Assembly (NCBI RefSeq): GCF_013019105.1
Contig: NZ_BLTE01000006.1
Location: 1 to 64,000, forward strand
DNA from: Fundidesulfovibrio magnetotacticus
GTDB taxonomy: Bacteria; Desulfobacterota; Desulfovibrionia; Desulfovibrionales; Desulfovibrionaceae
Direction of reading: 5' to 3'
DNA length: 64,000 bases
Position numbers and translations under genes: made by a program. Below are positions 17,323 to 24,213 of this stretch, one piece after another. The notes below the pieces were generated by a model that saw only the letters and a list, made by a program, of their open reading frames with translations, had not been told where the DNA came from and ran no database searches. How positions within the stretch are numbered: position 1 is the first letter of the stretch; every line of letters begins with the position of its first letter.

Positions 17323-17532
17323 CTAGTCCACCACCACCATCACGCTGGAGGCCTTCATCATGGCCTTCACGGGCGACCCCACCTTAAGCTCCAGGGACTC
17401 CACCGAATGCTTGGTGATGATGGACACCACCTCCACTCCGGGGGCCACCTCGATGACCACTTCGGAATTGACCGCCCCGGGGGTGATGGACTTGACGACG
17501 CCGGGGATCAGGTTGCGGGCGCTGACTTTCAT
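17323..17532 (-). CDS. Molbindin (Mop-domain molybdate-binding protein), copy 1
   Basis: The 69-residue single Mop domain has the family start MKVSARNLIPGVVKSITPGA and closes with KASSVMVVVD. Molbindins assemble into oligomers that bind molybdate or tungstate and buffer or deliver it in the cytoplasm. The ATG at 17532 has AAGGAG. It differs from the copy at 17808-18017 at only a few residues (LELKVGSPVKAMM against LGLKEGSQVKAMV). Each copy has its own promoter. Molybdenum-cofactor genes lie a few kilobases downstream. Confidence 0.9.
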   Translation of the reverse strand: MKVSARNLIPGVVKSITPGAVNSEVVIEVAPGVEVVSIITKHSVESLELKVGSPVKAMMKASSVMVVVD

Positions 17533-17551
17533 GATGTTCTCCTTGGTTTTG

Positions 17552-17612
17552 CCCGGACGCCCTTGCGTCCGGGGGTTGGGTGCAAGGATAACCACCAACA
17601 AAAGTCATGCAA
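17552..17612 (-). promoter_or_regulatory. Promoter and 5' hairpin of molbindin copy 1
   Basis: On the minus strand TTGCAT (17607-17612) is followed after 16 bases by TATCCT (17585-17590). Just past the expected start of transcription lies a perfect 9-bp hairpin, CCCGGACGC-N4-GCGTCCGGG (17552-17573). The 12 bases TTGCATGACTTT are identical in the promoter of copy 2. The rest of the gap to 17807 holds nothing I recognise. Confidence 0.55.
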
Positions 17613-17807: not shown

Positions 17808-18017
17808 CTAGTCCACCACCACCATCACGCTGGAGGCCTTCACCATGGCCTTCACCTGGGAGCCTTCCTTGAGGCCCAGGGACTCCACGGAATGCTTGGT
17901 GATGATCGACACCACCTCCACTCCGGGGGCCACCTCGATGACCACCTCGGAATTGACCGCGCCGGGGGTGATGGACTTGACGACGCCGGGGATCAGGTTG
18001 CGGGCGCTGACTTTCAT
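17808..18017 (-). CDS. Molbindin (Mop-domain molybdate-binding protein), copy 2
   Basis: The 69-residue Mop domain is nearly identical to the product of 17323-17532, and the DNA of the two genes is also nearly identical over most of their length, so the duplication is recent or kept alike by conversion. It should bind molybdate or tungstate as an oligomer. The ATG at 18017 has AAGGGGG. The spacing of about 275 bases between the copies and the presence of a separate promoter for each show that they are independent units. Confidence 0.9.
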   Translation of the reverse strand: MKVSARNLIPGVVKSITPGAVNSEVVIEVAPGVEVVSIITKHSVESLGLKEGSQVKAMVKASSVMVVVD

Positions 18018-18034
18018 GGAAACCCCCTTGTGGG

Positions 18035-18089
18035 CGCTGCGAGCGCAGCGTGTTTCCGACCAGTGTAGCCCTTCCGGAAAGTCATGCAA
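18035..18089 (-). promoter_or_regulatory. Promoter and 5' hairpin of molbindin copy 2
   Basis: On the minus strand TTGCAT (18084-18089) and TACACT (18062-18067) are 16 bases apart, the same spacing as for copy 1. A perfect 6-bp hairpin with a 4-nt loop, CGCTGC-GAGC-GCAGCG (18035-18050), follows at the expected 5' end of the RNA. The hairpin sequence differs from copy 1 although its place is the same. Confidence 0.5.
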
Positions 18090-18333
18090 ACCAAATCTTG
18101 CGTGTCCCTCGACGATGCCGAAGCTCCGGAGCCTGCTCCGGCAGGCTGGGCACGGGGGGCATTGGCGGCAGGGTCCGGCGAGAAGGGAACACCAGGACCC
18201 TGCGGCTTGGCGGTTCAGGGCCTTGCCGCCGGACGACAGGGGAAGCCAGACGCCCCCCGCGAGCGCACCCGCGATCGCCCCTGCCGGGCCAGGCCTCCCC
18301 GGATGCGAACACGCCCTGCCTGCCCCCACGCAA
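18090..18333. other. Intergenic stretch without a recognised gene
   Basis: This part of the 405-base gap between molbindin copy 2 and the ADH synthase gene has no reading frame I can support. It contains short GC-rich inverted repeats only. Confidence 0.5.
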
Positions 18334-18422: not shown

Positions 18423-19220
18423 CTATTCGCCCAGCCCCTCCAGGGCCTCTTCGACGCTCCAGCCGTCGTGGACGATCTTGGCCAGGGACTGCAGGAGGCG
18501 GCCCGGGTGCTTGTGCTGGAAGATGTTGCGGCCCACCGAGAGGCCCATGCCGCCCGCCTGCACCGAATCGAAAACCATGCGCAGGAAGTCGCGGGTGGTG
18601 GGGGTCTTGGGTCCGCCCGCGATCACCACGGGCACCCTGGCCCCGGCCACCACGCCCGCGAAGCTCTCGGGGTCGCCGGTGTAGGGAACCTTCACGATGT
18701 CCGCGCCCAGTTCCATGCCCACGCGGGCGCAATGGGCCACCACGGCGGGGTCGAACTCGTTGGAGATCTTGGGGCCGCGCCCGTAGACCATGGCCAGCAC
18801 CGGGATGCCCCAGCGCACGGCGTCCTTGGAGATGCGGCCCATGTCGGCCAGCATGTCGCGCTCGGAGGCGTCGCCCAGGTTCAGGTGCACGCTCACGGCG
18901 TCCGCGCCCAGGCTCACGGCCTCCTCCACGTCGCAGACCAGGGTCTTGGCCCCGGGGAAGGGCGACAGGCTCGTGGAGGCCGAAAGGTGCACGATCAGCC
19001 CGATGTCGCGGCCCCTGGCGCGGTGGCCGCAGGGCACCACGCCCTTGTGCATGAGCACGGCGTTGGCCCCGCCCTCCACCATGTGGGTCACGGTGTCGCG
19101 CATGTCGATGATGCCCTCGATGGGGCCCACGGTCACGCCGTGGTCCAGGGGCACGATGATGGTGCGCCCGGTGTCGCGGTTGATGATGCGTTCCAGACGG
19201 ATGGTTTTCCCGATGTGCAT
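18423..19220 (-). CDS. 2-amino-3,7-dideoxy-D-threo-hept-6-ulosonate (ADH) synthase, class I aldolase family
   Basis: The 265-residue protein belongs to the DhnA/FBP-aldolase IA group that includes archaeal-type ADH synthase, the first enzyme of the alternative route to 3-dehydroquinate and aromatic amino acids. Visible motifs are [13 protein letters not shown] near 24, [13 protein letters not shown] near 108, [10 protein letters not shown] near 140 (Tyr), [11 protein letters not shown] near 175 with the Schiff-base Lys, and VIAGGPK. Sulfate reducers of this group use this route instead of DAHP synthase. A plain fructose-bisphosphate aldolase is the alternative. The ATG at 19220 has AGGAGG. 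Its leader looks like an attenuator (19261-19424), which supports the aromatic role. The usual partner, dehydroquinate synthase II, is not in this window. Confidence 0.85.
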
Positions 19221-19260
19221 GAGCGCCTCCTGATGGCGTCTGGGGTTGCGCGTCCGGGCC

Positions 19261-19298
19261 AAGAAAAACGGGGCCGCGAACGCTCGGTTCGCGGCCCC
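19261..19298 (-). terminator. Leader terminator (attenuator) of the ADH synthase gene
   Basis: A perfect 12-bp stem, GGGGCCGCGAAC / GTTCGCGGCCCC, with a 5-nt loop. On the minus strand it is followed by GTTTTTCTT. It sits about 40 bases upstream of the ADH synthase ATG, and there is no minus-strand gene before it other than the 32-codon leader frame. Its left arm can instead pair with a 9-base stretch inside that frame (19350-19358). Confidence 0.75.
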
Positions 19299-19325
19299 GC
19301 GAAGGGGCATCTCCGTTGCCGGTTG

Positions 19326-19424
19326 CTAGAAGCGCCCGCCCCGCCGCGCGCCGCGAACGCGGACACCGTAGCAATAATACGCCATGCTGACGGAGGAAGC
19401 GGCGACGAAATGGGACTTGCGCAT
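19326..19424 (-). CDS. Putative tyrosine-rich leader peptide
   Basis: A 32-codon frame, ATG to TAG, with AAAGG upstream, ending about 28 bases before the leader terminator. Residues 16-19 are Tyr-Tyr-Cys-Tyr, coded TAT TAT TGC TAC (19368-19379). Right after them lies CCGCG-TT-CGCGG (19351-19362), which can fold on itself, and GTTCGCGGC (19350-19358), which is complementary to the terminator's left arm. This is the layout of ribosome-mediated attenuation, as in trpL or pheL. A ribosome slowed at the Tyr codons would favour the antiterminator. The alternative is that TATTAT is only a -10 box. Confidence 0.5.
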   Translation of the reverse strand: MRKSHFVAASSVSMAYYCYGVRVRGARRGGRF

Positions 19425-19431
19425 GTCCGAA

Positions 19432-19461
19432 CCTTTAGTCATCCTTGGCTCCGGCTGTCAA
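19432..19461 (-). promoter_or_regulatory. Possible promoter of the attenuated leader
   Basis: TTGACA (19456-19461, minus strand) is followed after 17-18 bases by a poor -10 (CTAAAG or TAAAGG). It would start the RNA very close to the leader ATG at 19424. The -35 is perfect; the -10 is weak. Confidence 0.3.
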
Positions 19462-19475
19462 GACGGAGGATTTTC

Positions 19476-19709
19476 ATGCGCCGTACCGCTCTGTTCGTGC
19501 TTGTCGCGCTGCTCGGGGCCTGCTCCGGGCCGCCCCGCATCGTCAACCCCAACAAGTCGGCCGCCGAGGCCAGGGGCGACTACGACGAATGCCGCGCCCG
19601 CTCGGCCGTGTCCACGGCCCTGGCCCCGGCCAAGGAGGCCGAGGCCCTGGCCCAGAAGATCCTGGACGGCTGCATGCGCGCCAAGGGGTACACCGTGGAG
19701 GGGCCGTGA
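19476..19709 (+). CDS. Small lipoprotein
   Basis: The 77-residue protein has a lipoprotein signal with lipobox LLGAC (Cys near 16). The mature part is short and mostly helical with two Cys residues (DECRAR near 38 and DGCMRAKGY near 65). I recognise no family. The start has GGAGGA. Its stop overlaps the GTG start of the MoaD-like gene by 4 bases, an odd coupling of an envelope protein to cofactor synthesis. Confidence 0.7.
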   Translation: MRRTALFVLVALLGACSGPPRIVNPNKSAAEARGDYDECRARSAVSTALAPAKEAEALAQKILDGCMRAKGYTVEGP

Positions 19710-19959: not shown

Positions 19960-20991
19960 ATGATCCCGATGGACCAGCCCGCCAAAGACTCCCGGGACGT
20001 TCTCGCAGACGCCTTCGGGCGCGTGGTCAACTACCTGCGCGTGAGCGTCACCGACCGCTGCAACCTCCGCTGCGTCTACTGCCGCCCCGTGAAGGACTTC
20101 ACGGCCCTGGACCACGCGGACATGCTCTCCTACGAGGAATACCTGCGCGTGATCCGCCTGGCCGCGCCGCTGGGGCTCACCAAGATACGCCTCACGGGCG
20201 GCGAGCCCCTGGCCCGGCGCGGCTTCGAGCGTTTCCTCTCCGAGGTGATGGCCGCCGCTCCCGGCATGGACGTGCGCCTCACCACCAACGGCACCCTCCT
20301 GGCCGGTCGCGCCCGCTCCCTGGCTTCGCTGGGCCTGGCGGCCGTGAACATCTCCCTGGACTCGCTCGACCCGGAGAATTTCCGGCGCATCACCGGCGTG
20401 GACGCCTTCCGCCTGGTGCGCGCGAGCATCGACGAGTGCCTGGAGGCGGGCATCCGCGTGAAGGTGAACGCCGTGGCCCTCAAGGGCGTCAACGACCACG
20501 AGCTCCCGGCCTTCCTCGCCCTCGCCTCGCAATACCCCCTGGACGTGCGCTTCATCGAGTTCATGCCCATCGGCGGCGACACCCTCTGGGACTCCTCACG
20601 CTACTGGGCCGCCTCGGACGTCCTGGAGCAGGCCCGCAGCCTGGCGGACATCGCGCCCGTGCTCCACGGCGACGAGGGGCGCGGCCCGGCCCGCATGTGG
20701 ACCATCCAGGGCGGCAAGGGCCGCCTGGGCGTGATCTCCGGGCTCTCGGGGCACTACTGCCGCAGCTGCAACCGCCTGCGCCTCACCTGCGACGGCAGGC
20801 TCCGCCCCTGCCTCTACTCCGACAAGGAATACCGCCTGCGCCCGCTCCTGCGCTGCCTCAAGACGAGCGACGAGCGCATCCTCGACGTGCTGCGCCGCGC
20901 CCTGGCCCGCAAGCCCATGGGCTACAAGCTCCTGGCCGAGCGCGGCCCCGGCGGCGTGTGCCACAAGCCCATGACCGCCATCGGCGGCTGA
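19960..20991 (+). CDS. moaA: GTP 3',8-cyclase (MoaA)
   Basis: The 343-residue radical-SAM enzyme turns GTP into 3',8-cyclo-GTP, the first step of molybdenum-cofactor synthesis. The N-terminal cluster motif is CNLRCVYC near 35-42. Motif LTGGEPL lies near 80, and the second cluster Cys residues are in YCRSCNRLRLTC and RPCLYS near 265-290. The C-terminus ends in Gly-Gly as MoaA does, although one residue context (AIGG) is typical. The start ATG follows GGGAG at a rather long spacing; an ATG 9 bases later is an alternative. Confidence 0.95.
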   Translation: MIPMDQPAKDSRDVLADAFGRVVNYLRVSVTDRCNLRCVYCRPVKDFTALDHADMLSYEEYLRVIRLAAPLGLTKIRLTGGEPLARRGFERFLSEVMAAAPGMDVRLTTNGTLLAGRARSLASLGLAAVNISLDSLDPENFRRITGVDAFRLVRASIDECLEAGIRVKVNAVALKGVNDHELPAFLALASQYPLDVRFIEFMPIGGDTLWDSSRYWAASDVLEQARSLADIAPVLHGDEGRGPARMWTIQGGKGRLGVISGLSGHYCRSCNRLRLTCDGRLRPCLYSDKEYRLRPLLRCLKTSDERILDVLRRALARKPMGYKLLAERGPGGVCHKPMTAIGG

Positions 20992-21013
20992 CCCCTTCGC
21001 CTCAAGGATTTCC

Positions 21014-22252
21014 ATGGACAAAGGCTTCCTCGAACTCATCTCCCCCGACGCCTTCCGGGGCATCCTGACCGGATTCGCCCACCTGCCCGGCGAGGACGTG
21101 CCCCTGGCAGAGGCCGCCGGACGCTTCCTGGCCCGCCCCGTCACCGCCGGGGAGGACCTCCCCGCCCTGTCCCGCTCCGGCATGGACGGCTACGCCGTGC
21201 GCCCCGAGGACACCTTCGGGGCCACCGAGACCAACCCCGCCTACCTGGACCTGGCCGGAACCCTGGACATCGCCGCCGTCTCCCGCGAGCCCCTGGAAAA
21301 CGGACGCTGCGTGCGCCTGGTCACCGGGTCCAGCCTGCCCCCCGGGGCCGGGGCCGTGGTCATGGTGGAGCACACGCAGGACCTGGGCGCGGGAACCATC
21401 GAGATCAGGCGTCCCGCGGCGCCGGGCGAGAACGTCATGCTGGCCGGGGAGGACGCCCGCGCCGGCGAGACCGCCCTGCCCGCCGGAACCCTCCTGCGCC
21501 CGGCCGAGATCGCCTTCCTCGCCGCGCTGGGCGTGGAAAGTGTGCACGCAGGGCGCCGCCCCAGGGCCGCCGTGCTCTCCACCGGCGACGAGATCGTGCC
21601 CCACGCCGCCCGCCCCCTGCCCGGACAGATCCGCGACGCCAACCGCCCCGCCCTGTTCGCCCTCTGCGCCCAGACCGGCGCGTCCACCTTGGACCTGGGC
21701 ATCGCCCGCGACGACCTGGGGGCCATCGCCGAGGGCATGGCCCGGGGCCTGGAGGAGGCCGACGCGGTGTTCCTCTCGGGCGGCAGCTCCGTGGGCGTGC
21801 GCGACCTCACCGTGGAGGCCCTGGCGCGCATCCCCGGGGCCGAGGTGCTGGCCCACGGCCTGGCCCTCTCCCCCGGCAAGCCCACCATCCTGGCCCGCGC
21901 CCGGGGCAAGGCCGTCTGGGGCCTGCCCGGCCAGATCACCTCCGCCCAGGTGGTGATGTTTCTTTTCGGCTGCCCGTTCCTGGAGCGTCTGGCCGGCGAC
22001 GTCCACGCCTTCACGCGCGCGCGCCCGGCCGTGCAGGCCCGGCTCACCCGCAACCTGGCCTCCCGCCAGGGCCGGGAGGACTGGGTGCGCGTGCGACTGG
22101 CCCCCTCCGGCGGTCCGCTCCCCGACGCCTTCCCCGTGCTGGGCAAGTCGGGCCTCGTGAAAACCCTGGTCCAGGCCCAGGGGCTCCTTCGCATCCCGGC
22201 CGGCCTCGAAGGCCTGGAGGCCGGCTCCTCCGTGGAGGTCATGCTGCTATGA
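21014..22252 (+). CDS. moeA: Molybdopterin molybdenumtransferase (MoeA)
   Basis: The 412-residue cytoplasmic protein inserts molybdate into adenylated molybdopterin. The N-terminal domain has LSRSGMDGYAV near 55. The MoCF-type domain has AVLSTGDEIV near 192, the FLSGGSSVG motif near 255 and LALSPGKPT near 288. A C-terminal beta domain follows. It lies 22 bases after moaA and overlaps the next gene by 4 bases, so the three form one operon. The presence of a second MoeA-like protein next door suggests separate roles for molybdenum and tungsten (inference). Confidence 0.93.
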   Translation: MDKGFLELISPDAFRGILTGFAHLPGEDVPLAEAAGRFLARPVTAGEDLPALSRSGMDGYAVRPEDTFGATETNPAYLDLAGTLDIAAVSREPLENGRCVRLVTGSSLPPGAGAVVMVEHTQDLGAGTIEIRRPAAPGENVMLAGEDARAGETALPAGTLLRPAEIAFLAALGVESVHAGRRPRAAVLSTGDEIVPHAARPLPGQIRDANRPALFALCAQTGASTLDLGIARDDLGAIAEGMARGLEEADAVFLSGGSSVGVRDLTVEALARIPGAEVLAHGLALSPGKPTILARARGKAVWGLPGQITSAQVVMFLFGCPFLERLAGDVHAFTRARPAVQARLTRNLASRQGREDWVRVRLAPSGGPLPDAFPVLGKSGLVKTLVQAQGLLRIPAGLEGLEAGSSVEVMLL

Positions 22253-24213
22253 GCCACAAACGCAACATCTACCTGCGCACCGTGCCCATCCCCGAAGCCC
22301 TGGAGCGGGTGAAATCCCTTCTGAACCGCGCCGCCCTGGTGGGCGTGGAGAAAATTCCCACGGAACAGGCCCTGGGCCGCGTCACCGCGAGCCCCGTGAC
22401 GGCCCGGCTCTCCTCGCCCACGTTCCACTGCGCGGCCATGGACGGCATCGCCGTGCGGGGCGAATCCACCTTCGCCGCCCGCGAGGGCAGCCCCGTGACC
22501 CTCTCCCCGGGCGAGGGCTTCGCCCTGGTGAACACCGGCCAGCCCCTGCCCCCGGGCTTTGACGCCGTGGCCATGATCGAACACGTGGTCTTCGACGACG
22601 CGGGCAACGCCTCCCTGGAGACCCCCGTGGCCCCATGGACCCACGTGCGCCGCATCGGCGAGGACATCGTGGCCACGGAGCTCATCCTGCCCCGGCGGCG
22701 CAAGCTCACCGCCTACGACCTGGGCGCGCTGCTCTCCTGCGGCGTCTGGGAGGTGGACGTCTACGAACAGGTGCGCATGGCCGTGATCCCCACCGGGGAC
22801 GAGGTGCTCGACTACACCTCCCGCCCCGAGCCCGGCCCCGGGCAGGTGGTGGAATCCAACTCCGTGATGCTCTGCGCCCTGGCCCAGGGCTGGGGACTGG
22901 ACGCCCGGCGCAGGCCCCCCGTGCGCGACGAGCCCGGGGCCCTGGCCCGCGCCGTGGAGGAGGCCCTCAACTCCCCGGCCCACGTGGTGGCCATCCTGGC
23001 CGGGTCCTCGGCGGGCAGCAAGGATTTCACCCGCGCCGTCATGGAGCGCTTCGGAGAGGTGGCCGTGCACGGCATCCAGGCCATGCCGGGCAAGCCCTCG
23101 CTGCTGGGCGTGGCCCAGGGCAAGCTCCTGGTGGGCGCGCCGGGCTATCCGGTCTCGGCCGTGGTCTGCTTCGAGGAGCTGCTGGCCCCGCTGGCCGCGT
23201 GGCTCTCGCGCTGCGAGCCCGCGCGCAGGCCCAGCGTGCCCGTGCGCCTGGCCAAGGACGTGCCTTCGCGCCCGGGGCTCACGGAGTTCCTGCGCCTGGC
23301 CGCCGGTCGCGTGGGCGAAGGCTACTCGGCCATCCCGCTCTCGCGCGGGGCAGGGCTCATCACCACGCTCACCAAGGCCCAGGCCGTGGCCCGCATCGCC
23401 CAGGACCGCGAGGGCGTTGCCCGGGGCGAGGTGGTGCAGGCCGAACTGCTGGTCTCCCAGGACGAGCTGGAACGCACCCTGGTGGTGGTGGGCAGCCACG
23501 ACAACACCCTGGACCTGCTGGCCGACGAACTCATGCGCCTGGATTCCCCCCTGCGTCTGGCCTCCTCCCACGTGGGCAGCCTGGGCGGGCTCACGGCCCT
23601 GGCCCAGGGCGCGGCCCTGCTGGCGGGCGCGCACCTCCTGGACACCGAATCCGGCGACTTCAACTTCCCCTTCATCGCCCGCCACCTGCCGGGCGTGGAG
23701 GTGGCCGTGATCAACCTGGCCATCCGCCACCAGGGGCTCATGGTGGCCCCGGGCAACCCCAAGGAGATCCAGGGCGTGGGCAGCCTGGCCCGGCCCGACG
23801 TGCGCTTCGTGAACCGCCAGCGCGGGGCAGGCACGCGCATCCTCCTGGACTACAACCTGAAGCTCGCGGGCATCGCGCCCTCGCAGGTGCAGGGCTACGC
23901 CCAGGAGGAGACCACCCACATGGGCGTGGCCGCCAACGTCAAGAACGGCGCGGCCGACTGCGGCCTGGGCGTCTTCTCCGCGGCCAAGGCCCTGGGCCTG
24001 GACTTCGTGCCCCTGGCCCGGGAGCGCTACGACCTCGTGCTGCCCCTGGCCAGCCTGGAGGAGCCGCGCGTGCAGACGCTCCTCGCGGTGCTGGGCGACA
24101 AGGCCTTCCAGGGCAAGATCGCGGCCTTGGGCGGCTACGAGACCACCTGGACCGGACGCAGGATGGAGCCCGGCATGGGCCTGCCCCCGGACAACGTGGA
24201 CATGGCCAACTAG
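22249..24213 (+). CDS. MoeA fused to a periplasmic-binding-protein-like domain
   Basis: The 654-residue protein has a MoeA part at about 1-410: FHCAAMDGIAV near 62, VIPTGDEVLDY near 182, ILAGSSAGSKDF near 250 and AMPGKPSLLG near 282. The last 210 residues form a PBP-like domain (LVVVGSHDNTLDLLADEL, FVNRQRGAGTRILLD, HMGVAANVKNGAADCGLGV) like that in ModE-type or LysR-like sensors. This fusion is known in anaerobes. The PBP-like part may sense molybdate or tungstate, or a pterin. It has no DNA-binding domain and no signal peptide. Confidence 0.88.
   Translation: MSHKRNIYLRTVPIPEALERVKSLLNRAALVGVEKIPTEQALGRVTASPVTARLSSPTFHCAAMDGIAVRGESTFAAREGSPVTLSPGEGFALVNTGQPLPPGFDAVAMIEHVVFDDAGNASLETPVAPWTHVRRIGEDIVATELILPRRRKLTAYDLGALLSCGVWEVDVYEQVRMAVIPTGDEVLDYTSRPEPGPGQVVESNSVMLCALAQGWGLDARRRPPVRDEPGALARAVEEALNSPAHVVAILAGSSAGSKDFTRAVMERFGEVAVHGIQAMPGKPSLLGVAQGKLLVGAPGYPVSAVVCFEELLAPLAAWLSRCEPARRPSVPVRLAKDVPSRPGLTEFLRLAAGRVGEGYSAIPLSRGAGLITTLTKAQAVARIAQDREGVARGEVVQAELLVSQDELERTLVVVGSHDNTLDLLADELMRLDSPLRLASSHVGSLGGLTALAQGAALLAGAHLLDTESGDFNFPFIARHLPGVEVAVINLAIRHQGLMVAPGNPKEIQGVGSLARPDVRFVNRQRGAGTRILLDYNLKLAGIAPSQVQGYAQEETTHMGVAANVKNGAADCGLGVFSAAKALGLDFVPLARERYDLVLPLASLEEPRVQTLLAVLGDKAFQGKIAALGGYETTWTGRRMEPGMGLPPDNVDMAN

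Follow-up and report, generated by a model that had tools for sequence, protein, structure and literature searches.

Does the short, tyrosine-coding frame ahead of the ADH synthase (ADHS) gene belong to a transcription attenuator? The question arises on the minus strand of the window, the whole 64,000-nucleotide stretch of Fundidesulfovibrio magnetotacticus DNA analysed here. Attenuators of the trp/phe type combine a short leader peptide rich in the pathway's end product with mutually exclusive antiterminator and terminator structures before a biosynthetic gene, and ADHS performs the first step of the aromatic pathway. A first-pass annotation had assigned the locus to this type. The element is, in our judgement, very probably a ribosome-mediated transcription attenuator that would sense charged tRNA-Tyr and control a stand-alone ADHS isozyme; the support comes from sequence anatomy, conservation and distribution. 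The features of the locus are:

19456..19461, minus strand: -35 box TTGACA, read directly; the same in 6/6 genus copies
19433..19438, minus strand: -10 box CTAAAG, 17-nt spacer from TTGACA; CTAAA kept in 6/6 genus copies
19326..19424, minus strand: leader peptide frame MRKSHFVAASSVSMAYYCYGVRVRGARRGGRF, 32 aa, read directly; orthologous frames in five relatives
19368..19379, minus strand: regulatory codons TAT TAT TGC TAC (Tyr-Tyr-Cys-Tyr), read directly
19351..19362, minus strand: possible 1:2 hairpin CCGC-GUUC-GCGG just 3' of the Tyr codons; predicted, weak, 4 bp
19350..19358, minus strand: segment 2 (antiterminator arm) GTTCGCGGC, exact complement of segment 3
19287..19300, minus strand: segment 3 (terminator left arm) GCGGGGCCGCGAAC, direct reading and terminator scan
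19268..19281, minus strand: segment 4 (terminator right arm) GTTCGCGGCCCCGT, direct reading and terminator scan
19264..19268, minus strand: five-T run of the terminator, read directly; TTTTT in 6/6 genus copies
19231-19226, minus strand: AGGAGG ahead of the ADHS ATG, from the sequence
18423..19220, minus strand: ADH synthase gene, stand-alone isozyme, TIGR01949 equivalog

The 32-codon frame with its Tyr-Tyr-Cys-Tyr run was read directly at 19424-19326 (ATGCGCAAG...TTCTAG, encoding MRKSHFVAASSVSMAYYCYGVRVRGARRGGRF*), as the first-pass annotation had described. TAT, said there to be sparse, accounts for 2/42 Tyr codons in five window genes and for two of the three in the leader. Segment 2 starts 9 nt past the last Tyr codon, and the reported complementarity is exact: GTTCGCGGC (19358-19350) matches GCCGCGAAC within the left arm of the terminator. 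Of the pairing proposed between CCGCG and segment 2, what stands is that CCGC (19362-19359) can form a weak 4-bp hairpin with GCGG (19354-19351); both halves are unchanged in the six genus copies. The terminator (19300-19268) reads GGGGCCGCGAAC-cgagc-GTTCGCGGCCCC, followed by GTTTTT. Its stem has 12 perfect central pairs, or 14 counting flanking pairs, and it was one of two terminator-like sites on the minus strand between 17200 and 20100, the other having 5 pairs. The 12 perfect pairs and five T had been described correctly, but the last T lies 43 nt, not 40, from the ADHS ATG (19220).

Ahead of the leader, a perfect TTGACA is followed after a 17-nt spacer by CTAAAG, which matches the consensus at 3/6 positions and ends 8 nt before the leader ATG. 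This is the promoter that had been called weak. The distance from TTGACA to the ATG is 31 nt, and the transcript is expected to begin at the leader ATG or within about 2 nt of it. The ADHS protein scored 375.4 bits as a TIGR01949 equivalog (cut-off 299.45), which identifies its product as 2-amino-3,7-dideoxy-D-threo-hept-6-ulosonate synthase; its best solved relative by sequence is MJ0400 (2qjg, E 5.6e-93).

The window holds the sequence features expected of an attenuator: a leader frame with Tyr codons, a terminator, a complementary antiterminator arm and a pathway gene. From this arrangement we infer a leaderless start, ribosome stalling, termination and the direction of control. Transcription would begin at or beside the leader ATG, so that the leader peptide would probably be read from a leaderless mRNA. 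When Tyr is plentiful, the ribosome would reach the stop codon and mask segment 2; the 3:4 terminator would then form, leaving ADHS untranscribed. When Tyr is scarce, the ribosome would stall at the Tyr codons and leave segment 2 free to pair with segment 3, and RNA polymerase would continue into ADHS.

Taken alone, the window copy is neither statistically striking nor decisive. The whole leader folded with z = -1.32, and 19/200 shuffles folded as well. The match between segments 2 and 3 was equalled in 20/200 shuffles because the stretch is GC-rich; the corresponding counts for the other genus copies (L002-L006) were 9, 48, 1, 12 and 43 of 200, the search in L003 and L005 having started past a Phe codon located within segment 2. 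With just three Tyr codons, interrupted by Cys, the window leader also falls, as does L004, under the blind threshold of at least five aromatics, so the case for it rests on its relatives. What makes the attenuator convincing here is conservation among the genus copies rather than the statistics of the window.

A search of relatives covered 59 genomes, and the ADHS upstream regions were then aligned. Five of the other six genus members examined yielded orthologues at 87-90% identity; the sixth, 66% complete, gave a single ADHS match (L017), which is of the operon type. In the protein tree, from which clades alone were used, the six Fundidesulfovibrio solo copies formed one clade (100/98). Frame, Tyr run, terminator and promoter were kept in all six aligned upstreams, and the leader ATG at 19424 was likewise present in 6/6. 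The Tyr run is TAT TAT TAT TCC TAC (YYYSY) in the five relatives against TAT TAT TGC TAC in the window, and the indels within the aligned frame span 9, 12 or 3 bases, all multiples of three. TTGACA-N17-CTAAA was invariant, as were GGGCCGCGAAC of segment 3 and GTTCGCGG of segment 4 (6/6 each); CCGCGAAC of segment 3 was also invariant in the genus alignment. Segment 2 retained TCGCGG in 6/6 and TTCGCGG in 5/6 copies (ATCGCGG in G002). The first-pass annotation had suggested aligning relatives and had named a hairpin kept without the Tyr frame as grounds for refutation; this was not what the alignment showed, since all six genus copies retain the frame and its Tyr codons. A longer leader start, ATGACTAAA at 19442, was rejected: its ATG overlaps the -10 region, and in L002 and L003 the frame from that ATG closes at TAA/TAG ahead of the leader.

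The distribution of such leaders was assessed in a census of ADHS loci taken from the relatives search, a phylum draw and named loci (the best 80 of 574 confirmed). The phylum draw comprised 395 genomes, 194 of them with a match at 1e-30 or better, and supplied 28 new loci and 60 more regions, mostly in order of score, with some contig-end loci and all weaker matches passed over. Once matches below 50% identity, proteins shorter than 150 aa and duplicates had been dropped, 233 distinct loci remained. These were judged by a fixed rule that called for at least five Phe/Tyr/Trp within 12 residues of a short frame and a terminator lying 25-95 nt beyond the last of these codons. The rule was passed by 167/233 loci, a count that, like all others of the census, is uncorrected for relatedness among loci. 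Under the same rule no passes were recorded among 233 shuffled upstreams, 1500 random window positions or 117 ADHS coding stretches. Pass rates were 69/89 for the relatives search, 14/15 for the same family and 48/73 for families outside the order in the phylum draw, and 36/56 for named loci from the best 80 of 574. Together with the frame and Tyr codons in 6/6 genus copies, these aromatic leaders with terminators support the trp/phe-type reading.

Sixty-six of the 233 loci failed, 30 of which have DHQ synthase next. All 4 Aquificaceae loci are among them, and in the draw outside the order the least similar ADHS loci failed most often. The window copy and L004 failed through too few aromatics, whereas L056 (FFFFFFF) and L093 (YYYGY), in which a leader is visible by eye, fail the rule all the same and were counted as 'no leader found'. 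The failures further include a clade of stand-alone copies without a leader, four loci whose upstream sequence is shorter than 300 nt (L165, L184, L185 and L241) and, in four tandem ADHS pairs, the second gene. These pairs (L021, L028, L058 and L063) stand at the head of aromatic operons, with a leader before the first gene only.

The gene had been introduced as that of the entry enzyme, which is correct, but it is a stand-alone, Tyr-type isozyme, and another ADHS heads the aromatic/trp cluster of this genome. The window ADHS stands by itself between a Mop (molybdenum-binding) gene and a divergent frame. Two consecutive Mop frames (TIGR00638) lie downstream, at 17323-17601 and 17808-18329 (minus strand), and are faced by a gene cluster at 19960-24213 (plus strand) that, from its translations, we take to be molybdenum-cofactor-like. 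The second ADHS, on another contig (C7), is 67% identical to the window copy and carries the leader MHSTNFTAGFFSWFYFWFSRASGIGSGAR. It is followed by DHQ synthase II, chorismate mutase/prephenate dehydratase and aroA, and further along by a prephenate dehydrogenase-like stretch that precedes trpE and by frames best matching trpE, trpG, trpD, trpC, trpF, trpB and trpA, of which the trpE, trpC and trpF matches score under their cut-offs. A third, ADHS-like aldolase (G000:C15:70311-71048, L050) is 41% identical and, at 220.2 of 299.45 bits, below the TIGR01949 cut-off.

Leader type differed with gene context across the 233 loci, classes being assigned by the fixed rule with the window copy (L001) and L004 restored by hand, and six loci having too little downstream sequence for a context class. 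Copies with DHQ synthase next had leaders of class FYW (103) or FY (30), or none found (30). Solo copies had Tyr-only (10), Phe-only (5), FY (10) or FYW (8) leaders, or none found (31). Leaders for a single amino acid thus made up 15/33 of the solo but 0/133 of the operon leaders, a comparison uncorrected for kinship. A separate clade (94/82) groups five solo copies whose leaders are Phe-rich (L040, L042, L051, L056 and L074). The window switch appears to be the Tyr-tuned member of a class of attenuators that precede the majority of the examined Desulfobacterota ADHS genes. On balance we favour, with reasonable confidence, a joint reading in which peptide attenuators at the entry to the ADHS pathway would occur throughout the Desulfobacterota, each isozyme having a sensor tuned by its leader codons (to Phe, Tyr and Trp together at the aro-trp operon; to a single amino acid, Tyr or Phe, at stand-alone copies), and leader peptides in the window's order would mostly be read from leaderless mRNAs.

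A further clade of stand-alone ADHS (L029, L030, L038, L045, L071 and L078; 100/96), in which no leader was found, is a third isozyme type. Four of its six genomes (G010, G018, G025 and G029) also hold a solo copy with a Phe-rich leader and an operon copy.

Attenuation is not the only way to read a hairpin ahead of a gene. It might instead end a separate small RNA or small-protein gene, with ADHS using its own downstream promoter, and promoter, frame and terminator could indeed give a free-standing transcript of about 160 nt. Several findings make this improbable. The T run ends just 43 nt short of the ADHS ATG; 167 loci have a unit of this kind ahead of ADHS; and its leader residues are the end products of the pathway, with a leader type that differs between solo and operon copies. 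A promoter scan at a strict threshold listed no promoter-like site between 17200 and 20100, and hence none in that gap, although the leader's own promoter likewise went unlisted. The same scan bears on another proposal, in which TATTAT serves as a -10 box, as the first-pass annotation had considered, with the frame arising by chance and the hairpin being a plain terminator or a protein-dependent element. TATTAT does resemble a -10 box and the leader has just three Tyr codons, but the conserved TTGACA-N17-CTAAA upstream and the retention of the frame, Tyr codons and in-frame indels in 6/6 genus copies leave this explanation with very little room. Equally hard to credit is a riboswitch (metabolite-binding RNA) or T-box that governs the terminator with the peptide incidental: a terminator and an alternative fold are common to such elements, but no Rfam covariance model matched at gathering score in the window or nine related loci (best weak match in 19200-19520: E 0.09, 16.1 bits against a cut-off of 39), and what stays constant from locus to locus, while the RNA sequence varies, is the aromatic codons.

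For the attenuator, the pairing of segments 2 and 3 could be compared across loci. Complementarity at this level or better was found in at most 10/200 shuffles for 62/72 order-level leaders (74 candidates, less two without a terminator) and in at most 5/100 shuffles for 137/167 leaders, and in 116/167 segment 2 begins 5-9 nt after the last aromatic codon. Ribosome stalling was modelled with a footprint of 12 nt from the A-site codon in 169 leaders, comprising the 167 that passed the rule and the window copy and L004, added by hand. With the ribosome on the Tyr codons of the window leader, 13 segment-3 nt were predicted to pair with the leader. Placed on the middle aromatic codon, it left at least 8 segment-3 nt leader-paired in 153/169 leaders versus 286/845 shuffled spacers (159/169 versus 485/845 at a looser cut of 5 bases). 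The terminator formed in 155/169 without a ribosome and in 169/169 with the ribosome at the stop, the latter almost by construction because segment 2 is then excluded from the fold. When leaders were combined with foreign segments 3, they reached a mean of 9.33 of 11 pairs compared with 9.82 for their own, and at least 10 pairs in 1088/2280 foreign versus 85/114 own combinations. This swap discriminates poorly, so covariation across lineages is modest and was not used as main evidence.

Codon choice in the leaders departs from that of the genes they precede. At the 97 loci where the ADHS gene exceeds 60% GC, the leaders contain TTT 320, TTC 83, TAT 198 and TAC 101 times; the ADHS genes themselves contain TTT 75, TTC 348, TAT 48 and TAC 289 times. 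Most Phe and Tyr codons of the leaders thus end in U, even where the gene itself favours C in that position. In 113/167 leaders a TTGACA lies no more than 60 nt from the start codon; the other 54 have none there. The distance is 30-32 nt in 65 of the 113, which would allow for hardly any 5' UTR, and 45-54 nt in another 37. Among the order-level candidates, the -10 of the best promoter ends at most 12 nt from the start codon in 61/74 (L049, without a terminator, included). This spacing points to leaderless initiation in the window's order, where translation of the leader from a leaderless message is likely; it would not apply everywhere.

Attenuation controls trp and pheA (PMC5343134). Like the gammaproteobacterial trp, pheA and pheST leaders, those described here combine a peptide rich in end product with antiterminator/terminator alternatives; unlike them, they precede ADHS, would use Tyr as the sole signal or one of several, have a predicted leaderless start and, in the window and nine related loci, matched no Rfam family. 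The earlier statement that no attenuator had been described for this enzyme was too strong: a list published in 2005 (PMC1173090, Table 7) places a putative attenuator ahead of the aroA'-aroB'-pheA-aroF-tyrA-trp supraoperon of Desulfovibrio vulgaris, an operon of the same type as those with mixed leaders here. The attenuator entries of that list come from a database of predicted attenuators. The main text of the paper does not use the word 'leader', and its relevant passages give no description of a leader peptide, of codon specificity, of solo isozymes or of how widespread such elements are. Also listed there, among others, is a putative attenuator before Vibrio aroAI-alpha_Y > tyrA, the former taken to be a Tyr-type DAHP synthase. 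Corynebacterium glutamicum aroF has a putative Phe-Tyr-Phe leader peptide (PMC4046766) and so resembles the present loci in its attenuator-like, mixed-aromatic leader before a first-step enzyme, there DAHP synthase, but belongs to another enzyme family and another phylum. Leader transcripts that begin at the leader start codon are reported for Sinorhizobium meliloti trpL (PMC7298713) and Corynebacterium diphtheriae ilvB (PMC5784534); those 5' ends come from data, whereas ours are predicted from promoter spacing. In the open-access literature searched, we found no account of the leader peptides themselves, of their codon classes or of the solo-isozyme versions.

In Escherichia coli, the separate first-step isozymes AroF, AroG and AroH answer to different aromatic amino acids (PMC5343134), through feedback inhibition and TyrR/TrpR, whereas for ADHS the distinction apparently lies in the leader codons. 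If our reading is true, ADHS attenuators would be the RNA-level counterpart of that logic and would include a peptide attenuator that responds to Tyr alone, a new addition to the type; isozymes dedicated to Tyr or Phe would arise once a gene had been duplicated and its leader codons retuned. The ADH-synthase route to aromatic compounds, which has received little study, would then have a testable regulatory logic. The aromatic cluster of Desulfovibrio desulfuricans is induced by nitrate, which its authors leave unexplained, and by NO (PMC5701242), and that of D. hydrothermalis is expressed less at high pressure (PMC4162548). These shifts of whole clusters could possibly reflect tRNA charging acting through the attenuators.

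Two observations concern individual loci of the census. On a contig labelled Candidatus Sumerlaeota (L138), an ADHS of 66% identity is accompanied by an aromatic leader and a terminator, either through horizontal transfer or because the contig was misbinned. Six leaders from outside the order (L095, L097, L100, L103, L105 and L109) have GTCGAGG ahead of the start codon and CCTCGAC, or a close variant, near the end of the frame; the two could pair and thereby hide the leader's ribosome site. In several of these six, TTTTAAAAG is present twice.
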